Source of the DNA: Dactylorhiza incarnata
Taxonomy: Eukaryota > Streptophyta > Magnoliopsida > Asparagales > Orchidaceae
Direction of reading: 5' to 3'
Assembly (NCBI GenBank): GCA_033032865.1
Contig: JAWHQI010000009.1
Location: 15,097,001-15,161,000 of the forward strand
DNA length: 64,000 bases
Shown: positions 4,214 through 58,845 of the stretch, piece by piece
Position numbering within the stretch: position 1 is the first letter of the stretch
Layout of the letters: each line of letters begins with the position of its first letter
Program-made: the position numbers and the translations under genes
Notes under the pieces: model-generated
What the model saw: only the letters and a program-made list of their open reading frames with translations
Told to the model about the DNA's origin: nothing
The model's database searches: none

Positions 4214-4245
<32 letters not shown>
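4214..4245 (-). repeat. 32 bp C-run (G-run on the sense strand) at the polypurine tract of copia A
   Basis: An uninterrupted run of 32 C on the plus strand between the RNase H stop and the 3' LTR, exactly where the polypurine tract that primes plus-strand DNA belongs. The exact length may be affected by sequencing of homopolymers. Confidence 0.85.
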
Positions 4246-10494: not shown

Positions 10495-10514
10495 GGTCGG
10501 GCCTCACTCTGGTA
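10494..10514 (+). repeat. Left terminal inverted repeat
   Basis: cggtcgggcctcactctggta matches the reverse complement of 18490-18510 at 16 of 21 positions, including an unbroken 10-base block CACTCTGGTA and the CGGG block. The outermost base is ambiguous because of the adjacent C-run. Confidence 0.75.
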
Positions 10515-10560
10515 GACTGAATCCGACTGAATATCATTATTTTATTCAGCGCAACCTAAG

Positions 10561-10800
10561 AAAATATAAAATATAACGAATCCCGCCGCTTCAATCCCGC
10601 GCCCCTTCATTTCTCCTCTCCGTACTCAGCTCTCCTCGCTCTCCTCGCACAGCTTCCTCGTGATTTCTCTAGGGTTTGATTCCGGCGCAGCCTCCCCCAT
10701 CGTCTCCGGCAATTAATCACAGCTCTCCGGCGCTCCTTTTCCAATCCGATTCAGTCTACACAGGAGCTCTCCGACGCAGCCTACCCATCCTCTCCGCAAG
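10561..10800 (+). promoter_or_regulatory. Probable 5' untranslated exon of the transposase gene
   Basis: Pyrimidine-rich leader typical of plant 5' UTRs (tctccgtactcagctctcc, ttctctagggtttgattc). It ends in a strong splice donor, CGCAAG|GTACGTATC, at 10800/10801. AT-rich DNA with TATA-like atataaaatataac lies just upstream (10563-10577). If spliced, array A would be intronic, with a candidate acceptor at actcaaaatag/gatg just before 11320. Confidence 0.5.
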
Positions 10801-10854
10801 GTACGTATCGCATCCACCATTATCATGTTCGAACCCATTAGGAGAAACGACTCT

Positions 10855-11242
10855 ACCCGGAGAGCCAGTGGCTATCCGAGGAGAGTAGAATGGCTCTCCG
10901 CGTAGAGCCAGTGGCTATCCGAGGAGAGTAGAATGGCTCTCCGTGTATCGCATCTGTTTGGCTCTCCGCTGATGGCTATCCAAGGAGAGTACAATGGCTC
11001 TCCGCGTAGAGCTAAACAACTCTCCCGCTGAGATCCACTGGCTCTCCGAGGAGAGCCCTTTGTCTCTCCGCGGAGAGCCGGAGAGCGGTTTGGCTCTCCG
11101 CGGAGAGCCGTTTGGCTCTCCGCGGAGAGCGGTTTGGCTCTCCGCGGAGAGCCGTTTGGCTCTCCGCGGAGAGCCGTTTGGCTCTCCGCGGAGAGCGGTT
11201 TGGCTCTCCGCGGAGAGCCGTTTGCTCTCCGCGGAGAGCCAA
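10855..11242. repeat. Palindrome array A (CTCTCCGCGGAGAG)
   Basis: About eight perfect 14-base palindromes CTCTCCGCGGAGAG between 11064 and 11240, most extended to GGCTCTCCGCGGAGAGCC and separated by GTTT. Six or more degenerate copies precede them from 10855 (ggctatccgaggagag, ggctctccgcgtagag). Overlapping ORFs on both strands are by-products of repeat length and are not called as genes. It lies directly upstream of the transposase, probably in its 5' leader intron. Confidence 0.92.
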
Positions 11243-11319
11243 AAAGTTTTAATTTGGAATGTGAGGTAGGAAATAACCTAGGCAAGCTACTATAACCAAT
11301 TATAATTACTCAAAATAGG

Positions 11320-14300
11320 ATGCTAGTATTATGGCTACTAATCTACCCTTTGGGTTTGGTGACTAGATTATTTGACTATTTGTCTTTATCGGCAATGAAT
11401 GGTGTTGACATTGTGCTGCGGGACATTGCGAAAACACAACGATCAGTAGAGACCCTCGTTCATCGCTGCCCTGAAATTCTACCCGAATCGATTCCGACGC
11501 AAACGCCTCCATTCTATTCGTCAGCCTTCGACCGCCCCACTACTGAGCCGTGCATTTGTGGGAAGCAATCAGGCACGTTGAACAAAATTCAGGAAGATTG
11601 GATCAAGACCCAAGTGAAAATGATGGAGGATGGCATTCGCCTTCCCATCCGAATCGATCCGCCCGTGCCACTGTGGAACAAGCGACCTGACCTGAATGCG
11701 TATCTTTTGAAACCGTTGTTCGTGATTGATCCGGAACGGCAGTACGGCGTCAATGTGACAGCGGGTGCATGTCCATCTTGCAACAAAGTCGGCTTTCTTT
11801 CCCGCAAGCAATTAAGTGCTCCGCGAGTTGTCGATTGCATCGACACCACTGCATTCTCTATCAGTGCTAGATACATGTGCAAGAAGTCGAACACCTCCGG
11901 CGGCTGTGGTGTCACGTTCCAGGTCATGGACGAGGCAAAAAACGAGAAGTTGATCCCGACAGCCATCATCCTTAACTATCCTGTGCAGCTTTTCGAACAG
12001 AGCGCACACGACGTCGGTCTTGTTCAAATGGCATACGACTTGTACACGTCCCGTTCCGGCATTGCTGATGCAGCCAAGGTGATTCGTTGTGCACGAACGA
12101 CTCGATACATGCGTCAAGCCGCACTATATCGTGGTCACGTGTCGTGGTATTTGGATATGCGCTTATGGGATGCAGCAATTGGGCAAACGTCATCGCAGAA
12201 GGATCCAGCAGTGTTCCCTGATTTCCCATCATTTTTTCAGCATTGTAACGGGTACAATGGCACTCTTGGTCCAGTGGAATCAACGCTATCACGCCTAATC
12301 AATGACTGCATTGCTCGCCAACTTTCTTTCTTCAACCGAATGGAAGGCGCCATAACCGGGACTCATCTCTCGGCTGACCATCATCACAACGTGCCGGGAC
12401 GCATGAAATTGACGGACGAGTTCAATGGCAGGAAATTTTCCCCCGTTGAAGGATTGCACTCCGTCATGAACGAGCGCCAACAAATTCTCTCCCATCAATT
12501 CACATCAACTACGGGCAATGCAGAGCGTCGATTTGTTGGTCGAAGTTTGCAGAATCGGTACAATGCTTACAATATTGATACTTCTCTGCTCATCATGTAC
12601 CTTGACAAGTGCTGCGATGACCGAGAATGGCTACAAGATTTCGACAACATCATTGTTCTCCTAGACAATCATCACCTGATCACGAGGTATAGGGACAATT
12701 CGAACGGCACGGATCGTGCTCGGCAGGAACTATTTATGGCTGGCGTGGCCGAAATCATTGTTGGCAATGGAAATGCTTCAATGCGGGAAGGCTCCATCAT
12801 TGAGGCTGAACTGGATGCATTGTTGGAGAGCATTAAAAGCTGGGAAAACGAGAATGATGTGCCACAGTCGAAGCGCATTGTGACGACCAAACTTCTATCT
12901 TGCCACGAGACGCAGAAAAAGCACATCAGAAATTGCTTAACACCGCCTGTAGGGGCGTCAAACACCGTCGTGGATCGCTTCTTCCGTTCGACTCTACGTC
13001 GTGGATCGGGGAAGAACGAAAACTTATGGCGTCAAGGACGAGCCATTTTCCCGGAGACTATTTCCCTGGATGGAGGGATCTTGCTGCTCCATGCCGTGGT
13101 CGCTCAAATCAACTTTCGCGGCGAACTCCAATTTGATCCTCGCTGGGCATATTTGCCAATCTCTGGTATGCATATCATTCTCACTCAATATCTCGCAGCT
13201 CTTACGACCGACGGCATAACTCCCTCCCAAACGTCTCTTTCGACAATGTTTCATATGTTGCCTCTCTCGATTGAGGATTGCCACGGAGAGTTTGGATTAA
13301 CGGAGGCATTTGGACAATCCCTTCCTCAACTTCCAGAAATTCCAGCAGGTCAGATAGAATCCGTTGGAATGATTGCCGAAGCAATAGCTGATAATGCAAT
13401 TTGGTCGAGCCACACGTTCGATGCGATTGTGAACGATGCGCTTGAGGTTGCCGCAACTGCTGTGGAGAGGACTCCGAACGATGATCATCACTGCATTGGA
13501 GAAGACGAAGCACTACCGCTAAACCATACTGATATAAGCAACACGCCCCATTCTATTCAGTCCAGTCGCAAGCGCAGAAAACCCGGACCAACATCGCATG
13601 GGCAAAGCTCTGCTTCAAATCACCATAAAAAATCACGCAGCCTCAACGCGTTGGGAAATGAACGTCAATCGGCATTAGAAGGCCTTAATCTCTGGGAAAA
13701 AGTGATGAGCACTTCACCAATGATCAACCCCTTCGAACGGCGCTTACTCAGAATGGTGGCTCTCAAATTTCTTCAACCCGATGAACTGCTTGATCTAAAA
13801 GATTTTCCAATTGAATCTTTGCATATTCCACAATTGCATCGAATTTGGTCTGTTCTTGTCTCGGCTTTACATAGCACCAATTACGCTTTCAAACGGTTCA
13901 TTCGGCCAAAAACAGAACAGGTTCTTAAACAGCACTTGGAGGATATGGTTGCCCAGTCTCGTTTCAGATTGCCCATTCAACGAGCAGCGCCAAAACGCAG
14001 CATCATTACTGCACTAAATCTGGCCGCGTCATTGATTGCTCCAACGCAGGCGGGCCGTGAGGATAGTTTCATCCAGTTAGAAGAGACTGTCACCACAACA
14101 GTAACTCGAAGCGTCACTTTTACAACCGGCGCCCCAAGTCACAGTTCAAGTCAGCCCCTTGCAACAGATCTGCAAACGTCCCCGCCCGATCTAGTAATTG
14201 AAGGATCAGCGGACGATATCATTGATCGAATTGTTCAAAACGAGATTGATGCTGGGCATGCCGGCAACATTCACTGGACCAAAGTGGTCGCCCCAGCTTA

Positions 14301-14901
14301 CGCCCGCATTGCTGCACGCCGTGAGGATCTAGTTCAGATGACCCACAAGGAGATTCAAAATCGTTGGGATTATCTTAGACGTCTCAAAAGGAAAAGGACA
14401 TCAAACACTTTGCAGTCGCATACCGAAGCGCAAAAGGAGCTCGGTGATCAAGACGCCATCTACATTCAATCATCGCCGGTTGTTACACAATCATTGCCAG
14501 CGTCTTCTGCAGTCATCACGACGACGGAGGAACCTAATGTGGGCATCTCGTCCGCTGTCAGCGAGATTGGTTCTCGTCCTCCATTCATGGTAAATCAACA
14601 ATTGCCGACTTTCAATCAGATAATGGAGGCCATCGTCCCCGCCCCAGCTACAGGAGAGCCGTTCTCCCAATCGGAGAAGGAGCTGCTCAATTACTTGCTA
14701 ACTAGTCCAGCAGAGCGCTCCCATGTGAAATCGTCGACTGGTGATCAAATGTCTTGGAAGAGCCTAGCCAAGCGTTTCTTGTACTGGGGGCGAGTCGCAC
14801 GGGTGTTGGGGATGAACCAGTTTCGGGTTCGATCCGATGTGCAGCTCAAGCAAAAGGTTAAGGATATTAACAAAAAAAAGAGCTTGCAACAGTATGTGTG
14901 A
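11320..14901 (+). CDS. Transposase-like protein, 1193 codons, zinc ribbon plus RNase H fold
   Basis: A single uninterrupted frame. Start at 11320 follows a possible intron acceptor; Met at 11395 (MNGVDIVLRDI) is an equally good start. A CIC motif lies at Cys78/Cys80, then a zinc-ribbon-like CPSC...YMC...GGCG (Cys151, 154, 187, 196). A likely RNase H-fold core follows: SADHHHN (Asp353), YLDKCCDDREW (Asp429), LLDNHHLITRY (Asp449/His452) and SGKNENLW (Glu567). This order resembles the DUF6729-type transposase-like proteins I know from fungi and fish, and generally the D-D-E layout with DxxH of Mutator-type enzymes. A basic Ser-rich linker lies at ~740-790. Residues ~965-1030 (HKEIQNRWDYLRRLKRKR) and 1110-1193 (MSWKSLAKRFLYWGRV) look like Myb/SANT-type DNA-binding segments. 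Family name is from memory; transposase function is inferred. Confidence 0.8.
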   Translation: MLVLWLLIYPLGLVTRLFDYLSLSAMNGVDIVLRDIAKTQRSVETLVHRCPEILPESIPTQTPPFYSSAFDRPTTEPCICGKQSGTLNKIQEDWIKTQVKMMEDGIRLPIRIDPPVPLWNKRPDLNAYLLKPLFVIDPERQYGVNVTAGACPSCNKVGFLSRKQLSAPRVVDCIDTTAFSISARYMCKKSNTSGGCGVTFQVMDEAKNEKLIPTAIILNYPVQLFEQSAHDVGLVQMAYDLYTSRSGIADAAKVIRCARTTRYMRQAALYRGHVSWYLDMRLWDAAIGQTSSQKDPAVFPDFPSFFQHCNGYNGTLGPVESTLSRLINDCIARQLSFFNRMEGAITGTHLSADHHHNVPGRMKLTDEFNGRKFSPVEGLHSVMNERQQILSHQFTSTTGNAERRFVGRSLQNRYNAYNIDTSLLIMYLDKCCDDREWLQDFDNIIVLLDNHHLITRYRDNSNGTDRARQELFMAGVAEIIVGNGNASMREGSIIEAELDALLESIKSWENENDVPQSKRIVTTKLLSCHETQKKHIRNCLTPPVGASNTVVDRFFRSTLRRGSGKNENLWRQGRAIFPETISLDGGILLLHAVVAQINFRGELQFDPRWAYLPISGMHIILTQYLAALTTDGITPSQTSLSTMFHMLPLSIEDCHGEFGLTEAFGQSLPQLPEIPAGQIESVGMIAEAIADNAIWSSHTFDAIVNDALEVAATAVERTPNDDHHCIGEDEALPLNHTDISNTPHSIQSSRKRRKPGPTSHGQSSASNHHKKSRSLNALGNERQSALEGLNLWEKVMSTSPMINPFERRLLRMVALKFLQPDELLDLKDFPIESLHIPQLHRIWSVLVSALHSTNYAFKRFIRPKTEQVLKQHLEDMVAQSRFRLPIQRAAPKRSIITALNLAASLIAPTQAGREDSFIQLEETVTTTVTRSVTFTTGAPSHSSSQPLATDLQTSPPDLVIEGSADDIIDRIVQNEIDAGHAGNIHWTKVVAPAYARIAARREDLVQMTHKEIQNRWDYLRRLKRKRTSNTLQSHTEAQKELGDQDAIYIQSSPVVTQSLPASSAVITTTEEPNVGISSAVSEIGSRPPFMVNQQLPTFNQIMEAIVPAPATGEPFSQSEKELLNYLLTSPAERSHVKSSTGDQMSWKSLAKRFLYWGRVARVLGMNQFRVRSDVQLKQKVKDINKKKSLQQYV

Positions 14902-15015
14902 AACCATGAAAGGTATGTTTTTTATATGTATTATAGTAAAAAAATGATTTGAAAATAACACAATAATTTGCACTTATTATTCCATTATACAATTGTACCT
15001 CATTTAGGCCATTAC
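14902..15015 (+). other. Transposase 3' flank
   Basis: AT-rich stretch after the stop (tttttatatgtattatagtaaaa, aataatttgc) that probably contains the polyadenylation region. No gene. Confidence 0.45.
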
Positions 15016-15350
15016 CCAATTGGATCTCCATGGAGAGCCAATTGGATCTAAACGGAGAGCCAAATGGCTCTCCATGGAGAGCCAATTGGATCTAAACGGA
15101 GAGCCAAATGGCTCTCCATGGAGAGCCAATTGGATCTAAACAGAGAGCCAAATGGCACTCCATGGAGAGCCAAATGGCTCTCCACGGAGAGCCAATTGGA
15201 ATGGCTCTCCGGAGAGCAAATGGCTCTCCCCGGAGAGCCAAATGGCTCTCCCCGGAGAGCCAAATGGCTCTCCGCGGAGAGCCATCTGGCTCTCCGCGGA
15301 GAGCTACATAGCTCTCCGCGGAGAGCCGTTTGCTCTCCGCGGAGAGCCGT
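15016..15350. repeat. Palindrome array B (CATG, CGCG and intermediate cores)
   Basis: About 14 units. The left part uses CTCTCCATGGAGAG alternating with the one-armed ggatctaaacggagag. The middle has CTCTCCGGAGAG and CTCTCCCCGGAGAG. The right part has the canonical CTCTCCGCGGAGAG (15269-15350). Spacers are mostly CCAAATGG/CCAATTGG on the left and GCCGTTTG on the right. The array lies between the two genes and probably in the 5' leader of the second. Confidence 0.92.
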
Positions 15351-15428
15351 TTGCTTCCTCTATTTCTCTCTCCAATTTATTCTTCTTGTCCCTCTATTGT
15401 AACATATGTTTATAAATTTTGCAGATCA

Positions 15429-17931
15429 ATGGGGCAGAAAAAGATCCATTTTTTGAGCTCGAGGTGCTATTTAAACTCATTTGTTGGCCTAAGTTCAGCA
15501 ATACTAGAACGATTGGAGGAGGATCAGAAGAAGATGCTGATGGATGCCAACATCTGGCATATCTTCCATGCACCAAAGGTATCGCAGAACACTCCCCTTC
15601 TTTACGGTCTACTAAACTGGTATGATATAGAGAAGGATGTCTTCGTCATTGGATCGAGGGAGCTAACCTTCTCCCCCAATGACGTGGCAATGATATTGGG
15701 TCTGCCGAACCATGGGGAGGAAGTCATCCTGACTACCAAGCCATTTGGACCGCTAACGAAATCCGATTTGAAGACGGAACTTCAATCGATGGAGAAAGGG
15801 TCGTCCCCTGTGACGATGAAGATATTGATTTTGCACCTTCTGTGCAATTTCTTCTTCCCCTCGAGCGCGGAGAGGATGCCAATGTTCTTCGAGGAGGTCT
15901 CCAGCTTGGAGAAATTTCAAAAGTTCAATTGGCCAGAAGCGATCTATACCTTCGTTATGAGGTCGTTCAGGTCGATGGTGGAGAAGCTGCCACCTGTTGC
16001 AGAAGAAGGCCAACTGCAACATTGGCCAGAGTCTTCAATGGGATACATCTATGGATGCACCCATGTTCTCGTTGTAAGTATCTATATTTCTAATTCCTAA
16101 AATGAAATTTGTTTAATATGTTCTAAGCTATCGCAATGTTTGATATAGATTTGGTTCCTCGAGCACACCACCACCTTCGCTCCGCACTATCCGTCGTTGA
16201 GACCACGAATATTAAGATGGTCGGAGAAGGTCTCATTTTCAATGAAAGAGATGGGGACTGTTGCAAAACTCTTGGATGAGCAGGTAAATAATTTAGTTTA
16301 TTCGATTAATAACCACTTTTGAACTATCCAATACAATAGTTGTATTTCTTCTTTTTAGGTGTTGGAAGTACTAGATGAAATAACACCGACAGAGAAGTTG
16401 TTATGTTCAGACGTGACAACACAGTGGACACCACCACCTCCCACATTTAAGAGAAAACCAATAGTCTCGCCATCTAGGGTAGTAAAAAAAATGAAGTTTG
16501 CACCACCACCTCCCACATCATTACCACCTCCCTCATCATCATCACCTCCCCCATCACCCAGCACATCAGCACCTCCCCCACCACCTAGCACACCATCTAT
16601 CCCTCCGTCACAGTTTTGGATTGATTTCCAACATAGGATGTTAGATCAATTTGCTTTATTAAATAGCAAGATAGATAGTTCTGTAGATAGATTAGACAAA
16701 AAAATAGATAGAGTACATAGTGATTTAATTAGTTTTAGTCACAGTGTAGGTGAACGTCTTGAATCCATGAGTGCTGATATAGACACACTCATTCATCATT
16801 CCTCGCCATCATCTAGCCCGAGTATCTCTAGATCCCCTGCCCATCAAAACGCTACCACCCTCACTACCCCTCACGATACTTCCATTACTAATATTCTAGA
16901 CTCCCCATTGGGAGAAAGAGAAATTAAAACTACAAAGGCGGATGAAATTGATGTGTACCCCGTTGACTATCCGGGGAGACCGCTAATAGCTGCAGAAGAT
17001 AGAGATATCATCCATCAGCGTATGAGCGCCATACCATCGAGGTGCCCTTTTGACATTATACACTTTTATATTTTCAAAATTTTGATCTATGCACATTGAT
17101 ATTGACGATGACTTTCTAATGTTTCAGGAACGACCAAGCATTCAATAAATGGAATATAGTCGGATTTCGAGATGGCATGGATGCTCTTCTGACGGACAAA
17201 TACGTCGAAGATTGTCACATTGATGCCTACGCAAAGATCTTGACTTTGCGTAGAGATCGGGATAAAGAACCGTATCATCCGTTTATGTACATCAGTCCGA
17301 ACTTTTTGGTATGATCTCCCTATCAGTGCTTTATACATTAATAATTCTGTTTGCATTGCTAAAAAATGTTACAAATTATGTAGTTGCACTTCCCAAGGTC
17401 CAATGACGGAGAATCTAAGCTTGTAGCTGCATTCCTTGAGGGCATTACCAAGGAGAATCTTGCCAATATCAAAATGATTCTAATGCCAGTATGTTATAGT
17501 CAACACTGGTATTTATTGGTGGGTATGGTTAAAGAGAAGAAGTGGCTTATACATGACTCTCTGCGTAATGCCCAACGAAAAGTTTCCGCTAAAGAAGCTG
17601 TAAGTGCAGTTCATTGACATGCACTGTAGTATTGTACATTACGAGTTACTAATGTACGAACAAATTTGTGTTAATGCAGATTTCTGCGCTCCAGAAGGCG
17701 ACCGTTAAAAAAGTCCACGCAGGATTTTCCAATTGGAAACTCGACTTGACTGCTGGTATACCACAGCAGGAGAACTCCGTGGATTGCGGTGTCTTCGTTA
17801 TGAAGTATATGGAGCACATAGCGAAGGAAGGGCTGATGAGCTGGGAGAGTTGCGTAGACTGGCAGAAAAATATGCCTATGTTTAGAGCCCAGATCTGTGC
17901 AGACATCTTTAAAAATTTTGTGGTTGATTGA
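15429..17931 (+). CDS. PMD/DUF1985-like plus Ulp1 (C48) SUMO-protease-like gene, six exons
   Basis: Exons 15429-16073, 16149-16283, 16359-17041, 17128-17308, 17384-17599 and 17680-17931 all have GT-AG borders and join in phase to 703 codons ending TGA. Residues ~10-215 resemble the plant-mobile/DUF1985 region often fused to Ulp1 in plant transposons (FSPNDVAMILGLPNHGEEV). Residues ~300-350 are a Pro/Ser-rich linker (PPPPTSLPPPSSSSPPPSP), followed by a possible coiled coil (NSKIDSSVDRLDKKIDRVHS). The C48 domain has SQHWYLLV (His589), LIHDSLR (Asp606) and PQQENSVDCGVF (Gln649/650, Cys656). Ulp1 enzymes cleave SUMO from proteins. The catalytic triad is complete. An acceptor (attttgcag) before 15425 suggests an additional 5' leader intron spanning array B. 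Substrate and role in transposition are unknown. Confidence 0.88.
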
Positions 17932-18059
17932 TGTAAATTAAGAAACATTATTCGTGTACATTTGTAATGTTTGTCTATAATAACAATTGTTTCATGGATG
18001 AATACCGTTTTCAAATGGGTCAAAATCATAGCTTTAAATGAAATCAGTGAAGATACAGA
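17932..18059 (+). other. Ulp1-gene 3' flank
   Basis: AT-rich spacer between the stop codon and array C, with no further ORF. Probable polyadenylation region. Confidence 0.4.
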
Positions 18060-18320
18060 AGGCTCTCCGCGGAGATCCAAAAGGCTCTCCGCGGAGAGCA
18101 AAAAGATCTCCGCGGAGAGCAAAAAGCTCTCCGCGGAGAGCAAAAAGCTCTCCGCGGAGAGCAAAAAGTTCTCCGCGGAGATCCAAATGGCTCTCCGCGG
18201 AGATCCAAATGGCTCTCCGCGGAGATCCAAATGGCTCTCCGCGGAGATCCATTTGGCTCTCCGCGGAGAGCCATTTGGATCTCCGCGGAGAGCCATTTGG
18301 ATCTCCGCGGAGAGCCAAAT
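18060..18320. repeat. Palindrome array C (CTCTCCGCGGAGAG/ATCTCCGCGGAGAT)
   Basis: Twelve units with a ~21-22 bp period and invariant CTCCGCGGAG core. Flanks vary between GAGC, GATC and TTCT. Spacers are CAAAAAG in the first half, CCAAATGG in the middle and CCATTTGG at the end, so spacer polarity flips near 18250. It lies between the Ulp1-like gene and the right terminus. Confidence 0.93.
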
Positions 18321-18349
18321 GTCTATCTTTCGCAAATTGTGGCCGCGTT

Positions 18350-18489
18350 CTCTCCCTCCCTCCCTTCATTTTTTCTTCCTTTCCCTCTTTTTTCTTTCTC
18401 CCTCCCCCTTTCCCTCTCCTCCCCCTCTTTTTTCTCCTCCCCCTCTTTTTCTTTTTTCTCCCCCCCCCTCCCCCCTTTTTTCCCCCTCA
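18350..18489. repeat. ~140 bp polypyrimidine tract near the right terminus
   Basis: Almost only C and T on the plus strand (ctccctccctcccttcat, ttttctcctccccctc and similar) directly inside the right inverted repeat. Such homopurine-homopyrimidine DNA can adopt triplex structure. No coding value despite open frames. Confidence 0.8.
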
Positions 18490-18510
18490 TACCAGAGTGG
18501 AACCCGGCGG
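18490..18510 (-). repeat. Right terminal inverted repeat
   Basis: taccagagtggaacccggcgg is the inverted partner of 10494-10514, followed by C-runs and then by gypsy host sequence (gaattaaacggagc). Confidence 0.75.
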
Positions 18511-31370: not shown

Positions 31371-32914
31371 TGTTGAAACCGATTTCTCGGTCTCTGTGGA
31401 GGTCGGGGCCCCCAACAAGTTGAGGGGTGGCCAACTCTTACTCCCCCCAAGGGAGAGCTCTAGGTTGAAGGTGTTGGAACTACGAACTGGACCAAGGGCT
31501 CGGCGAGGAGGTCTCACCACATACCCGGAAGATCTTTAGAGCGCTTCCCCTCCCAAGCCAATGCCGGGCTTGGGCACCACTGGAGGCTCTCCTCGCACAC
31601 TAGAGAGAGAAAATGGGGAGAGAGAGAGAGGGAGAGTTAGCCTAGAACAAGCTTGCCCCCAAATGGTGCCCCCTTGGTCCTATTTATAGGATTTCTGGAT
31701 TTGGGCTGTAAATAACCAAACTCTGGCCTATCAGATTACCAAAATACCCTCGGATTTGGCTGCGGATAGCCAAATCCCGCTGTTCTGCAGCGCTAAATGC
31801 AGGCCAAACCCTCCCCCCAGAACTGGGCGAGAGGGGGTACCACGCGGTGCTCGGCGAGCCCACTAACTGGGTGGAGCGAGACCCAGGGTTCCCTTTGCTG
31901 GTCTCGCCCCCTGCTAGGAATGGGGGCGAGAGGGGTGTCGGCCCCCGCCTCCTCTCGCCCCTGCTGGGAATGGGGGCGAGAGGGGGGTCGGCCCCCGCCT
32001 CCTCTCGCCCCTGCTGGGAATGGGGGCGAGTGGGGGGTCGGCCCCCGCCTCCTCTCGCCCCTGCTTGGAATGGGGGCGAGAGGGGGGTCGCCCCCCGCCT
32101 CCTCTCGCCCCTGCTAGGAATGGGGGCGAGAGGGGGGTCGGCCCCCTCCCCCTCTCGCCCCTGCTAGGAATGGGGGCGAGAGGGGGGTCGGCCCCCTCCC
32201 CCTCTCGCCCCTGCTGGGAATGGGGGCGAGAGGGGGGACGGCCCCCGCCTCCTCTCGCCCCTGCTGGGAATGGGGGCAAGTGGGGGGTCGGCCCCGCCTC
32301 CTCTCGCCCCTGCTTGGAATGGGGGCGAGAGGGGGGTCGGCCCCCGCCTCCTCTCGCCCCTGCTAGGAATGGGGGCGAGAGGGGGGTCGGCCCCCGCCCC
32401 CTCTCGCCCCTGCTGGGAATGGGGGCGAGAGGGGGGTCGGCCCCCGCCTCCTCTCGCCCCTGCTAGGAATGGGGGCGAGTGGGGGGTCGGCCCCCGCCTC
32501 CTCTCACCCCTGCTGGGATGGGGGCGAGAGGGGGGTCGGCCCCCGCCTCCTCTCGCCCCTGCAAGGAATGGGGGCGAGGGGGGGGGGGGGGGGGGGGGGG
32601 GGGGCGGCCCCCGCCTCCTCTCGCTCCTGCTGGGAATGGGGGCGAGAGGGGGGTCGGCCCCCGCCTCCTCTCGCCCCTGCTAGGAATGTGGGCGAGGGGG
32701 GGTCGGCCCCCGCCTCCTCTCGCCTTTGCTGGGAATGGGGGCGAGAGGGGGGTCGGCCCCCGTCTCCTCTCGCCCCCTTTGTTTGGAAGGGCGAGCGGGA
32801 GGCTCCCGCCTCCACCGCTTGCCTCCTATCTTCCTGCCCTGGAACATACTGAAAAATAATGTGACAAAATATCCCTTGCCTCTAGGACATACTCGGCGAA
32901 TACAGGGTTGTACA
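31371..32914 (-). repeat. Gypsy 2 left (3') LTR with 50 bp tandem array
   Basis: 1544 bp. About 17 copies of a 50 bp unit (tgggggcgagaggggggtcg...) fill 31900-32790. The long plus- and minus-strand Gly/Pro/Arg ORFs in this region are reading-frame artefacts of the array. A 27 bp pure G-run interrupts the array at 32578-32604. Confidence 0.93.
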
Positions 32915-35791: not shown

Positions 35792-36973
35792 TGTTGAAAC
35801 CGATTTCTCGGTCTCTGTGGAGTTCGGGGCCCCCAACAAGTTGAGGGGTGACCAACTCTTACTCCCCCCAAGGGAGAGCTCTAGGTTGAAGGTGTTGGAA
35901 CTACGAACTGGACCAAGGGCTCGGCGAGGAGGTCCCACCACATACCCGGAAGATCTTCAGAGCGCTTCCCCTCCCAAGCCAATGTCGGGCTTGGGCACCA
36001 CTGGAGGCTCTCCTCACCCACTAGAGAGAGAAAATGGGGAGAGAGAGAGAGAGGGAGAGTTATCCTAGAAAAAGCTTGCCCCCAAATGGTGCCCCCTTGG
36101 TCCTATTTATAGGATTTCTAGATTTGGGCTGCAAATAACCAAACTCTGGCCTATCAGATTACCAAAATACCCTTCGATTTGGTTGCGGATAGCCAAATCC
36201 CGCTGTTCTGCAGCGCTAAACGCAGGCTAAACCCTCCCCCCGGAACTGGGCGAGAGGGGGTACCACGCGGGGCTCGGCGAGCCCACTAACTGGGTGGGGC
36301 GAGACCCAGGGTTCCCTCTGCTGGTCTCGCCCCCTGCTAGGAATGGGTCCGAGAGGGGGGTCGGCCCCCGCCTCCTCTCGCCCCTGCTGGGAATGGGGGC
36401 GAGAGGGGGGTCGGCCCCCGCCTCCTCTCGCCCCTGCTTGGAATGGGGGCGAGAGGGGGGTCGGCCCCCGCCTCCTCTCGCCCCTGCTAGGAATGGGGGC
36501 GAGAGGGGGGTCGGCCCCCACCTCCTCTCGCTCCTGCTGGGAATGGGGGCGAGAGGGGGGTCGGCCCCCGCCTCCACTCGCCCCTGCTAGGAATGGGGGC
36601 GAGAGGGGGGTCGGCCCCCGCCTCCTCTCGCCCCTGCTGGGAATGGGGGCGAGAGGGCGGTCGGCCCCCGCCTCCTCTCGCCCCTGCTAGGAATGGGGGC
36701 GAGAGGGGGGTCGGCCCCCGCCTCCTCTCGCCCCTGCTGGGAATGGGGGCGAGAGTGGGGTCGGCCCCCGCCTCCCCTCGCCCCTGCTGGGAATGGGGGC
36801 GAGAGGGGGGTCAGCCCCCGCCTCCTCTCGCCCCCTTTGTTTGGAAGGGCGAGCGGGAGGCTCCCGCCTCCACCGCTTGCCTCCTCTCTTCCTGTGCTGG
36901 AACATACTGAAAAATAATGTGACAAAAATATCTCTTTCCTCTAGGACATACTCGGCGAATACAGGGTTGTACA
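35792..36973 (-). repeat. Gypsy 2 right (5') LTR
   Basis: 1182 bp, aligned with 31371-32914 except that the 50 bp array (36330-36840) has about 10 copies instead of about 17. That accounts for nearly all of the length difference. It contains tcctatttataggat (TATA-like) and a GA-rich segment (36030-36060). Confidence 0.93.
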
Positions 36974-40941: not shown

Positions 40942-41681
40942 TCAAGGCCATTGAACGATAAGGAATGAGGAGAGTTCGACGATCATGCGAAGAAGCAGAT
41001 GAACGGGCACTTCAGATAACAAGCGATCATTCGAGCTGGAGACTGCGGCCAAGCGATCAAGCAGCAGAGATCAGGCGATCAAGCGAACAAGCGATCAAGC
41101 AGCGGAGGGAAGAAATCGGCGATCAGGCGAACAAGTAGGAGAAAACCTGACACTGCAAATAACGGTAGCGAGAGCGCGATTGCGATCAAGCGAGCAGGCC
41201 AGGCACGAGCAGACAAGCGAATGAAAAGGGCGATCACGAGAGCAACCTTGGGCGAGAGAGATGGCGCGATTAGGCGAGCTGGAGATTGCAGCCAACGGGA
41301 GGTCAGCGATCGCAAGAGAGGATGAGCTACTGCGGACAGGGTCTCGGCGAACACACTGTGACGATGCTGCGAACAAGAGTTGCGTCCAGATAAGCTCAAC
41401 AAGAACACAGTTTGCGTGATCAGAAGTGATGACAACTAGAGCAGACAGAGCATGAGGCCGTGGGAGACGCCAATCAGGTGGATCCCAGGCAGGCAACGAT
41501 GGAACGCTATAAAAGTAGCGGGGGGGGGGGGGGGGGGGGGGGGGGGATGGCGAATGAAGAGAGGGGGGGGGGGGGGGGGGGGGGTAAGATGCGATCTCTA
41601 GTATAAAGGCCGTCGGTCCGCCTACGCAGGAAGGGAGGAAGCGAGCGATAACAAGAGGAAAATAATTTTATGATCGATTTT
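40942..41681 (-). other. Copia E 5' leader with two long G-runs
   Basis: About 740 bp with many gcgatcaagcga-type words (40990-41230). Two pure G-runs on the plus strand (41520-41546, 27 bases; 41563-41584, 22 bases) are separated by 16 bp. Minus-strand ORFs here are low-complexity Leu/Ser frames and are not supported as genes. Confidence 0.6.
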
Positions 41682-55899: not shown

Positions 55900-56418
55900 A
55901 AGCCGGAACCCCTCCAAGTGCGACGCTTGGACCTCCCCTCTCCCCTTGGCCTCCGGCCATACCCCACCCCTTTCCCCCTCCAAATCGAGCCTTCCCAACT
56001 ACCCCCAACCGGCCCCCATATCCCATTCCCCTCCCACCACCACCTCCTTCCGGCAGCCCAAACCAGCCCCCTAACCACCGGCCAACCACCACCAAAATCC
56101 CCTCTCCAACTCCACCAAAAATAGCCCCCCTCGTTGCTCCAAATTCTCCCAGTTTCCGGTCTCTATTGATCATCGGAAAACCTTCCCCAACCACCTACGG
56201 CGAACCTCCACCATCACACTCCAAGTTCCCTTCATTTTTAGTTTTCCGGCAATCGCCGGAAAACACCTTCGGCCACCAACACCACTGGCCGCCACTCCGG
56301 CGACCCCCTCCGGCCAGCCACTACCCCATAACCACTTCCCCTCACTACCTCCATAACTCCCCACTACCCCCATTTCTCTCTCACGTGGAGCCCCCGTTCC
56401 TCCCATTACTGCTCCCCC

Positions 56419-56449
<31 letters not shown>

Positions 56450-58768: not shown

Positions 58769-58778
58769 GGGGGGGGGG

Positions 58779-58845
<67 letters not shown>
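58769..58845. repeat. G-run and (GA)n microsatellite
   Basis: Thirteen G followed by about 32 GA units. Confidence 0.95.

Follow-up and report, generated by a model that had tools for sequence, protein, structure and literature searches.

The stretch analysed here (64,000 nucleotides of the Dactylorhiza incarnata genome, contig JAWHQI010000009.1, positions 15,097,001 to 15,161,000, hereafter the window) contains an 8.0-kb DNA transposon with two genes on the same strand, one for a transposase-like protein (ORF1) and one for a protease of the Ulp1 type. Runs of C flank this copy on both sides, a feature absent from the description given in the initial annotation of the window, and target specificity is the most surprising property of the element. 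The limits of the element were set by comparing 21 copies, namely the window and 20 ten-kb loci (L009–L028), whose flanks differ and whose ends agree. The bounded 8-kb unit proposed earlier was therefore recovered, but its "21-bp inverted ends" proved a generous description, as a perfect inverted pair is formed by the inner 10 bp (CACTCTGGTA) only, the match between the outer ~10 bp being rough. The CACTC of the element is internal, and the outermost end lies 10 bp farther, at GGTCGGGCCT. All features are listed in Table 1.

Table 1. Features of the element and its target site (window positions; aa, amino acids; UTR, untranslated region)
Feature	Position	Strand	Remarks
Left target flank, C14	10481..10494	+	Unoccupied paralogues have a single C tract here
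Whole transposon, 8.0 kb	10495..18510	+ (gene orientation)	Limits set by 20 other loci with differing flanks
Left terminus GGTCGGGCCTCACTCTGGTA	10495..10514	+	666 genomic matches at ≤2 mismatches; reversed control 0
Palindrome array 1, 15 units	10849..11242	.	Upstream of ORF1, probably within a 5′ UTR intron
ORF1, transposase-like protein, 1168 aa	11395..14901	+	N-terminal Cys-rich DUF6729-like region; candidate catalytic D328, D404, D424xxH427, E542
Possible intron, CAACA/GTATGT ... TTTGCAG/ATCAATGGGG	14892..15424	+	Contains array 2; splice-site words
Palindrome array 2, 13 units	15014..15348	.	Between ORF1 and Ulp1
PMD-like/Ulp1 (Peptidase C48) gene, 703 aa	15429..17931	+	Exons 15429-16073, 16149-16283, 16359-17041, 17128-17308, 17384-17599, 17680-17931
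Palindrome array 3, 12 units	18059..18322	.	Downstream of Ulp1
Right terminus TACCAGAGTGGAACCCGGCGG	18490..18510	+	512 genomic matches when C8 follows, ≤2 mismatches; control 0
Right target flank, C10 then A C7 A C6	18511..18520 (C10)	+	Read in window

Among the 40 ORF1 matches scored of 1090 candidates in the host genome (3.27 Gb, 3184 contigs), 35 are 100% identical and 5 are 98% identical, and 38 of the 40 are free of stops. ORF1 occurs in two main length forms, the longer of which (a 1213-codon frame with 12 extra codons) is present in 26 of the 35 rows at 100% and was seen in L016–L028 and similar copies. The 703-aa Ulp1 frame is intact in 19 of the 21 fully read loci, window included, the exceptions being L013 and L015. 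The earlier proposal of a self-contained plant element that pairs a non-MuDR transposase with a SUMO-protease gene is supported by the many copies in which the two ends and the two genes recur together. Pairwise divergence is 0–14 substitutions per 8 kb with gaps left out (20 of the 21 loci; L013, whose right part is rearranged, was excluded), indicating that the family moved recently. This goes further than the initial annotation, which had suggested that both genes may still work; present activity of the family and of its proteins is what we infer from their sequences.

Head-to-tail tandem copies, with fused right and left ends and few or no C between them, were seen at L020/L021, L023 with C2648, L024/L025 and L068, where the joins read GGCG/GGTCGG, CCCG/GGTCGG, GGCGGCCCC/GGTCGG and GGTG/GGTCGG. 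At L010 and L013 (C2485:1102331-1119310), facing copies are fused beside a duplicated stretch of Ulp1 exon 4 with CCCCAAT filler, in a complex rearrangement.

Insertion sites in poly-C tracts

Wherever the junctions of the 40 copies could be read, a C run on the gene strand lies directly at both ends, except in the tandem joins and the rearranged L010. Of 35 left junctions that were readable, 31 carry 9–50 C; the exceptions are the tandem joins L021, L023 and L024 together with L010 (C27, then GC). On the right side, 7–33 C were found by script at 32 of 37 readable junctions and C8 was read by eye at L018, the remaining four being the tandem joins L020, L025 and C2648 and the rearranged L010 with C4. 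Genome-wide, at up to two mismatches, C8 followed by the left end gave 479 matches and the right end followed by C8 gave 512, with none for the reversed controls. C or G runs of at least 9 cover ~0.3% of the window outside the element. The insertions of this element, which exists in hundreds of copies, thus lie mostly within one kind of simple repeat, poly-C, as MuTAnT insertions lie in theirs, and almost always in one orientation, an unusually strict choice of target. A second sample consisted of the first 20 left-end matches outside the 40 copies, chosen regardless of C; one shows 100% similarity to the window element, the majority show 70–89% and two share the first 34 bp only. Twelve of these ends have at least 12 C and three have 7 C.

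The window copy is located in a dispersed repeat, so paralogues without the insertion can be read. When the joined window flanks were compared with the genome, 40 matches were scored of 157 candidates; 39 of them cross the join, the other being the right flank of the window copy itself. Twenty unoccupied paralogues were fetched (ranks 1–18, 20 and 22), and all 19 that are readable at the join, the 20th being unreadable, have a run of 5–29 C between GGAACGAAACTA-like and GACTTAAACGGAGC-like words. The filled site reads C14-element-C10-A-C7-A-C6 against a C run in the unoccupied sites, with no other gain or loss beyond C and single-base differences of the paralogue type. Unoccupied repeat units beside L012, L014, L016 and L020/L021 carry C tracts at the same place, and at L026 diverged paralogues inside the window read across the junction; the alignment of the L027 unoccupied site with the window was uninformative. 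As every readable paralogue has the run, the C tract was very probably present before the insertion, judging from these sequence comparisons.

Equality of the C lengths on the left and right sides was tried as a further signature and rejected. In a first set of 26 pairs from the 40 copies (without tandem joins, L010 and copies with an unread side), 9 pairs agreed in length to within 1 (expected 3.75, p 0.0066), this being one of 18 post-hoc settings. A second set comprised 29 pairs, from which C133 at 4978448, C66 at 1598869 and C1197 were excluded; the other 26, each with 6 or more C on either side, gave 4 matches (expected 3.5, p 0.48). Since C8-containing patterns had served to list all right ends and the majority of left ends in this second set, its C runs do not count as independent evidence of targeting.

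Several other C-rich sequences were observed. Pure C/G runs of 13–32 bp without an element occur in the window at 4214-4245, 32578-32604, 41520-41546, 41563-41584, 56414-56435 and 58769-58781, some of them in AT-rich sequence. Such runs may represent targets not yet used, scars of former excisions or something different, and the targeting by the element may bear on them. A GC-rich minisatellite, whose units contain CG-(C)n-TCTCGCCC, is a repeated target of the transposon (flanks of L012, L020/L021, L067 and L078), and similar sequence lies in the window at 32022-32781 and 36397-36553. At L110 (C1121:605754-605874), the right-side C23 runs directly into GGTCGGTCGACTGAAATCGACTG, which resembles the left end of a diverged relative.

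The two genes and the palindrome arrays

The open frame of ORF1 comprises 1201 codons (11296-14901), close to the 1193 given in the initial annotation, which had correctly described it as uninterrupted and transposase-like. Its relatives include Platanthera zijinensis proteins, the longest of which is 83% identical over residues 80–700, and further proteins at 51–59%. Three protein searches for a wider distribution, of which the first two scored ~8,000 candidates each and the third 5,787, returned Platanthera proteins and unnamed ones only, the third finding its own query alone, and a scan of viral contigs found no relatives of the element. One relative, P0006, is 34% identical over 98% of ORF1 residues 80–700 and matches DUF6729 (PF20499) with 35.6 bits against a cut-off of 27 (expectation value, E, 9.5e-9). 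The match covers residues 60–244 of P0006, a region aligned to ORF1, and the alignment is full-length, including the Cys-rich N-terminus. The proposed DUF6729-type assignment is reached through a 34%-identical relative and not through a match of ORF1 itself. No MULE, MuDR, hAT, CACTA or KDZ Pfam model matched ORF1 and its relatives (8 members scanned), in agreement with the earlier description of a non-MuDR transposase. No paper naming DUF6729 was found in the open-licence literature searched.

In an alignment of six sequences, D404, D424, H427 and E542 are invariant, and D328 is kept in all five sequences that cover its position. Several eukaryotic DDE superfamilies are characterised by a D-D-D(2)H-E series. 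In a low-confidence model of the core, D404 follows a strand, D424 follows the next strand and E542 lies in a later helix, an order that agrees with, and does not prove, an RNase H-like fold. ORF1 belongs to a DUF6729-related lineage of transposases, probably of DDE type.

The Ulp1 gene has six exons with GT-AG introns throughout and a continuous frame, as the initial annotation had proposed, and its product contains a Peptidase_C48 domain (Pfam, E 3.5e-19). In an alignment with Sentrin-specific protease 7, its HW, DS and DCG words correspond, and these presumably hold the His-Asp-Cys triad of the C48 family. The plant mobile domain (PMD, PF10536) that had also been assigned to this protein was seen at E 6.5e-7 with 29.3 bits, below the Pfam cut-off of 34.9, suggesting that this region is likely a diverged member of the domain. 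Removal of the predicted intron between the genes would fuse ORF1 and Ulp1 in frame into a protein of 1870 aa; an alternative, better-looking donor at 14913, past the ORF1 stop, would instead yield a two-cistron message. Upstream of ORF1 there is probably a 5′ UTR intron with the donor AAG/GTACGT at 10800/10801.

The unit of the palindrome arrays, GGCTCTCCGCGGAGAGCC, was counted across the window with up to 4 mismatches. The earlier description of three arrays of one palindrome before, between and after the genes was confirmed, with no unit elsewhere in the window. Array 2 as a single strand folds better than 100 of 100 shuffles, and the number of units differs among copies. A 3.0-kb non-autonomous relative (L087) shares both ends with the window element, has palindrome arrays near both ends and is flanked by poly-C on both sides (C23 and C13); among the BLAST matches listed, its similarity to the window element is confined to the arrays and ends. 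A second locus (L088) has a similar left part and no right end within the 4 kb read. Since L087 keeps the ends and arrays, and splice-site words place arrays 1 and 2 in likely introns and array 3 past the genes, the arrays probably act in cis in the DNA.

Target choice and alternative explanations

We favour, at a probability of about 0.7, the view that this is an autonomous DNA transposon of a DUF6729-related and probably DDE lineage, which selects pre-existing poly-C:poly-G tracts and inserts into them one way round. ORF1 would cut the ends and join them within the C tract, most likely by cut-and-paste, any duplication being concealed by the homopolymer. The G strand would receive the left end and the C strand the right end, which requires the complex to read the tract asymmetrically; the Cys-rich N-terminus of ORF1 is a candidate for this role. 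The palindrome arrays may be cis binding sites for ORF1 or a partner, as their retention in the non-autonomous relative suggests, and the PMD-like/Ulp1 protease may help in trans, e.g. by deSUMOylating proteins at the element. If spliced in frame, the two genes could yield a single ORF1–Ulp1 fusion protein.

A number of observations weigh against this view. The unoccupied paralogues are 81–93% identical and are not alleles, and the length of the target site duplication (TSD) is unreadable at the insertion sites, where it is hidden because the target is a homopolymer. Genome-wide, 187 of the 666 left ends fail the match to C8 plus left end within two mismatches, the cause having been looked at in the 20-end sample alone. 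Five of those 20 ends are without a clean terminal C run: one is a tandem join, three have interrupted C runs nearby and L071 has CCCCCAC only. One match to G8 plus left end was found at up to two mismatches, against 479 with C8. ORF1 (P0001) itself gave no informative Pfam match, with none to DUF6729 at E up to 10. The structure predictions are of low confidence (mean predicted local distance difference test scores of 39 and 53) and their fold comparison gave no significant match, which leaves motifs and the predicted order of strands as the basis for assigning DDE chemistry. Strict one-way orientation is also unusual for a DDE transposase, and it fits a homology-driven mechanism as well.

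This last point defines the main rival. As (C)n is not its own reverse complement, a one-sided outcome means either that the machinery discriminates the strands or that C tails guide the insertion by homology. In the latter case, the transposase would only excise the element, and the excised DNA, keeping its C tails, would enter C tracts elsewhere through annealing or homologous repair, making the orientation automatic. The presence of C on the same strand at both sides and the head-to-tail joins with few or no C between ends speak for such capture. However, some tracts are short for efficient homology, with 7–9 C per side, and unoccupied sites of just 5–6 C exist, even if the site used by the window copy may have been longer. 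We consider capture by C tails unlikely, though the leading competitor to recognition of the target by the machinery.

It is far less probable that the poly-C is made by the insertion event, through non-templated tailing or expansion. Total C at filled sites often exceeds that in local unoccupied units, as tailing would predict, but the 19 readable paralogues of the window site already have a C tract and the unoccupied neighbours lie in C-bearing repeats. Equally improbable is that the copies are segmental or satellite-like duplications and not transpositions: three tandem pairs among the 40 copies, one tandem join among the 20 further left ends and the single rearranged locus of L010 and L013 could be so explained, but the remaining read copies end at the same termini in differing flanks. 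Least credible of all is random insertion with survival, by selection or assembly, of copies in C tracts alone, even though insertion into such tracts may be neutral: the copies compared differ so little that they must be young, C/G runs make up a very small part of the window and selection leaves an orientation of 479 to 1 unexplained.

If target selection by the element is correct, oriented homopolymer targeting would be a new way for a DNA transposon to land without harm, and it could possibly be turned into a tool for inserting DNA into C tracts in a set orientation. Because the family is young, has many copies whose genes are intact and is represented by hundreds of ends in the genome, direct tests become feasible of its activity, of what a SUMO protease does on a transposon and of the function of DUF6729.

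Relation to known transposons

On balance, we lean towards an undescribed eukaryotic superfamily, in which a DUF6729-related DDE transposase would read poly-C:poly-G and tell its strands apart, combining oriented, site-class-specific integration with palindrome arrays that serve in cis and with a SUMO protease that is either co-encoded or fused to it. VANDAL and KI-type Mutator-like elements of plants carry a PMD/Ulp1-type gene beside the transposase, as is the case here, but ORF1 has no MULE or MuDR domain match. CACTA/EnSpm elements have CACTA/G termini, a 3-bp TSD and a Transposase_21/24-type domain; in the present element CACTC is internal and no such domain matched. The hAT elements have a hAT dimerisation domain and an 8-bp TSD, and no hAT domain was matched by ORF1 or the relatives scanned. 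Dada is reportedly a DNA transposon with strict target specificity, similar to that described here, but its target is multicopy RNA genes and not a homopolymer. The KDZ (Kyakuja-Dileera-Zisupton) transposases are large, of DDE type and with Cys-rich parts. KDZ elements, like the present element, have terminal inverted repeats and, in the passages of PMC12730594 on them, TSDs of 7–8 bp, but the KDZ Pfam model was matched by neither ORF1 nor its relatives.

According to passages of a review (PMC12477314), microsatellites frequently surround transposable elements in plants and humans and are possible landing pads. The word homopolymer has no occurrence in this review, and its passages on microsatellites describe no oriented DNA transposon, unlike the present element. 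We found no report of a transposon targeting poly-C tracts in the open-licence literature searched, and papers elsewhere may exist. The closest precedent is the Mutator-like MuTAnT/AutoMuTAnT of Medicago, which targets (TA)n; TAFT and Micron are named as similar (passages of PMC4486113). As in the present family, autonomous and non-autonomous copies of this plant DNA transposon lie in simple repeats and the TSD is obscured, being 9 nt where readable (same passages). In contrast to the DUF6729-related ORF1, the MuTAnT transposase is described there as mudrA-like, and its (TA)n target is its own reverse complement and gives no orientation, whereas the element in Dactylorhiza lies in a mononucleotide C tract in strict orientation.

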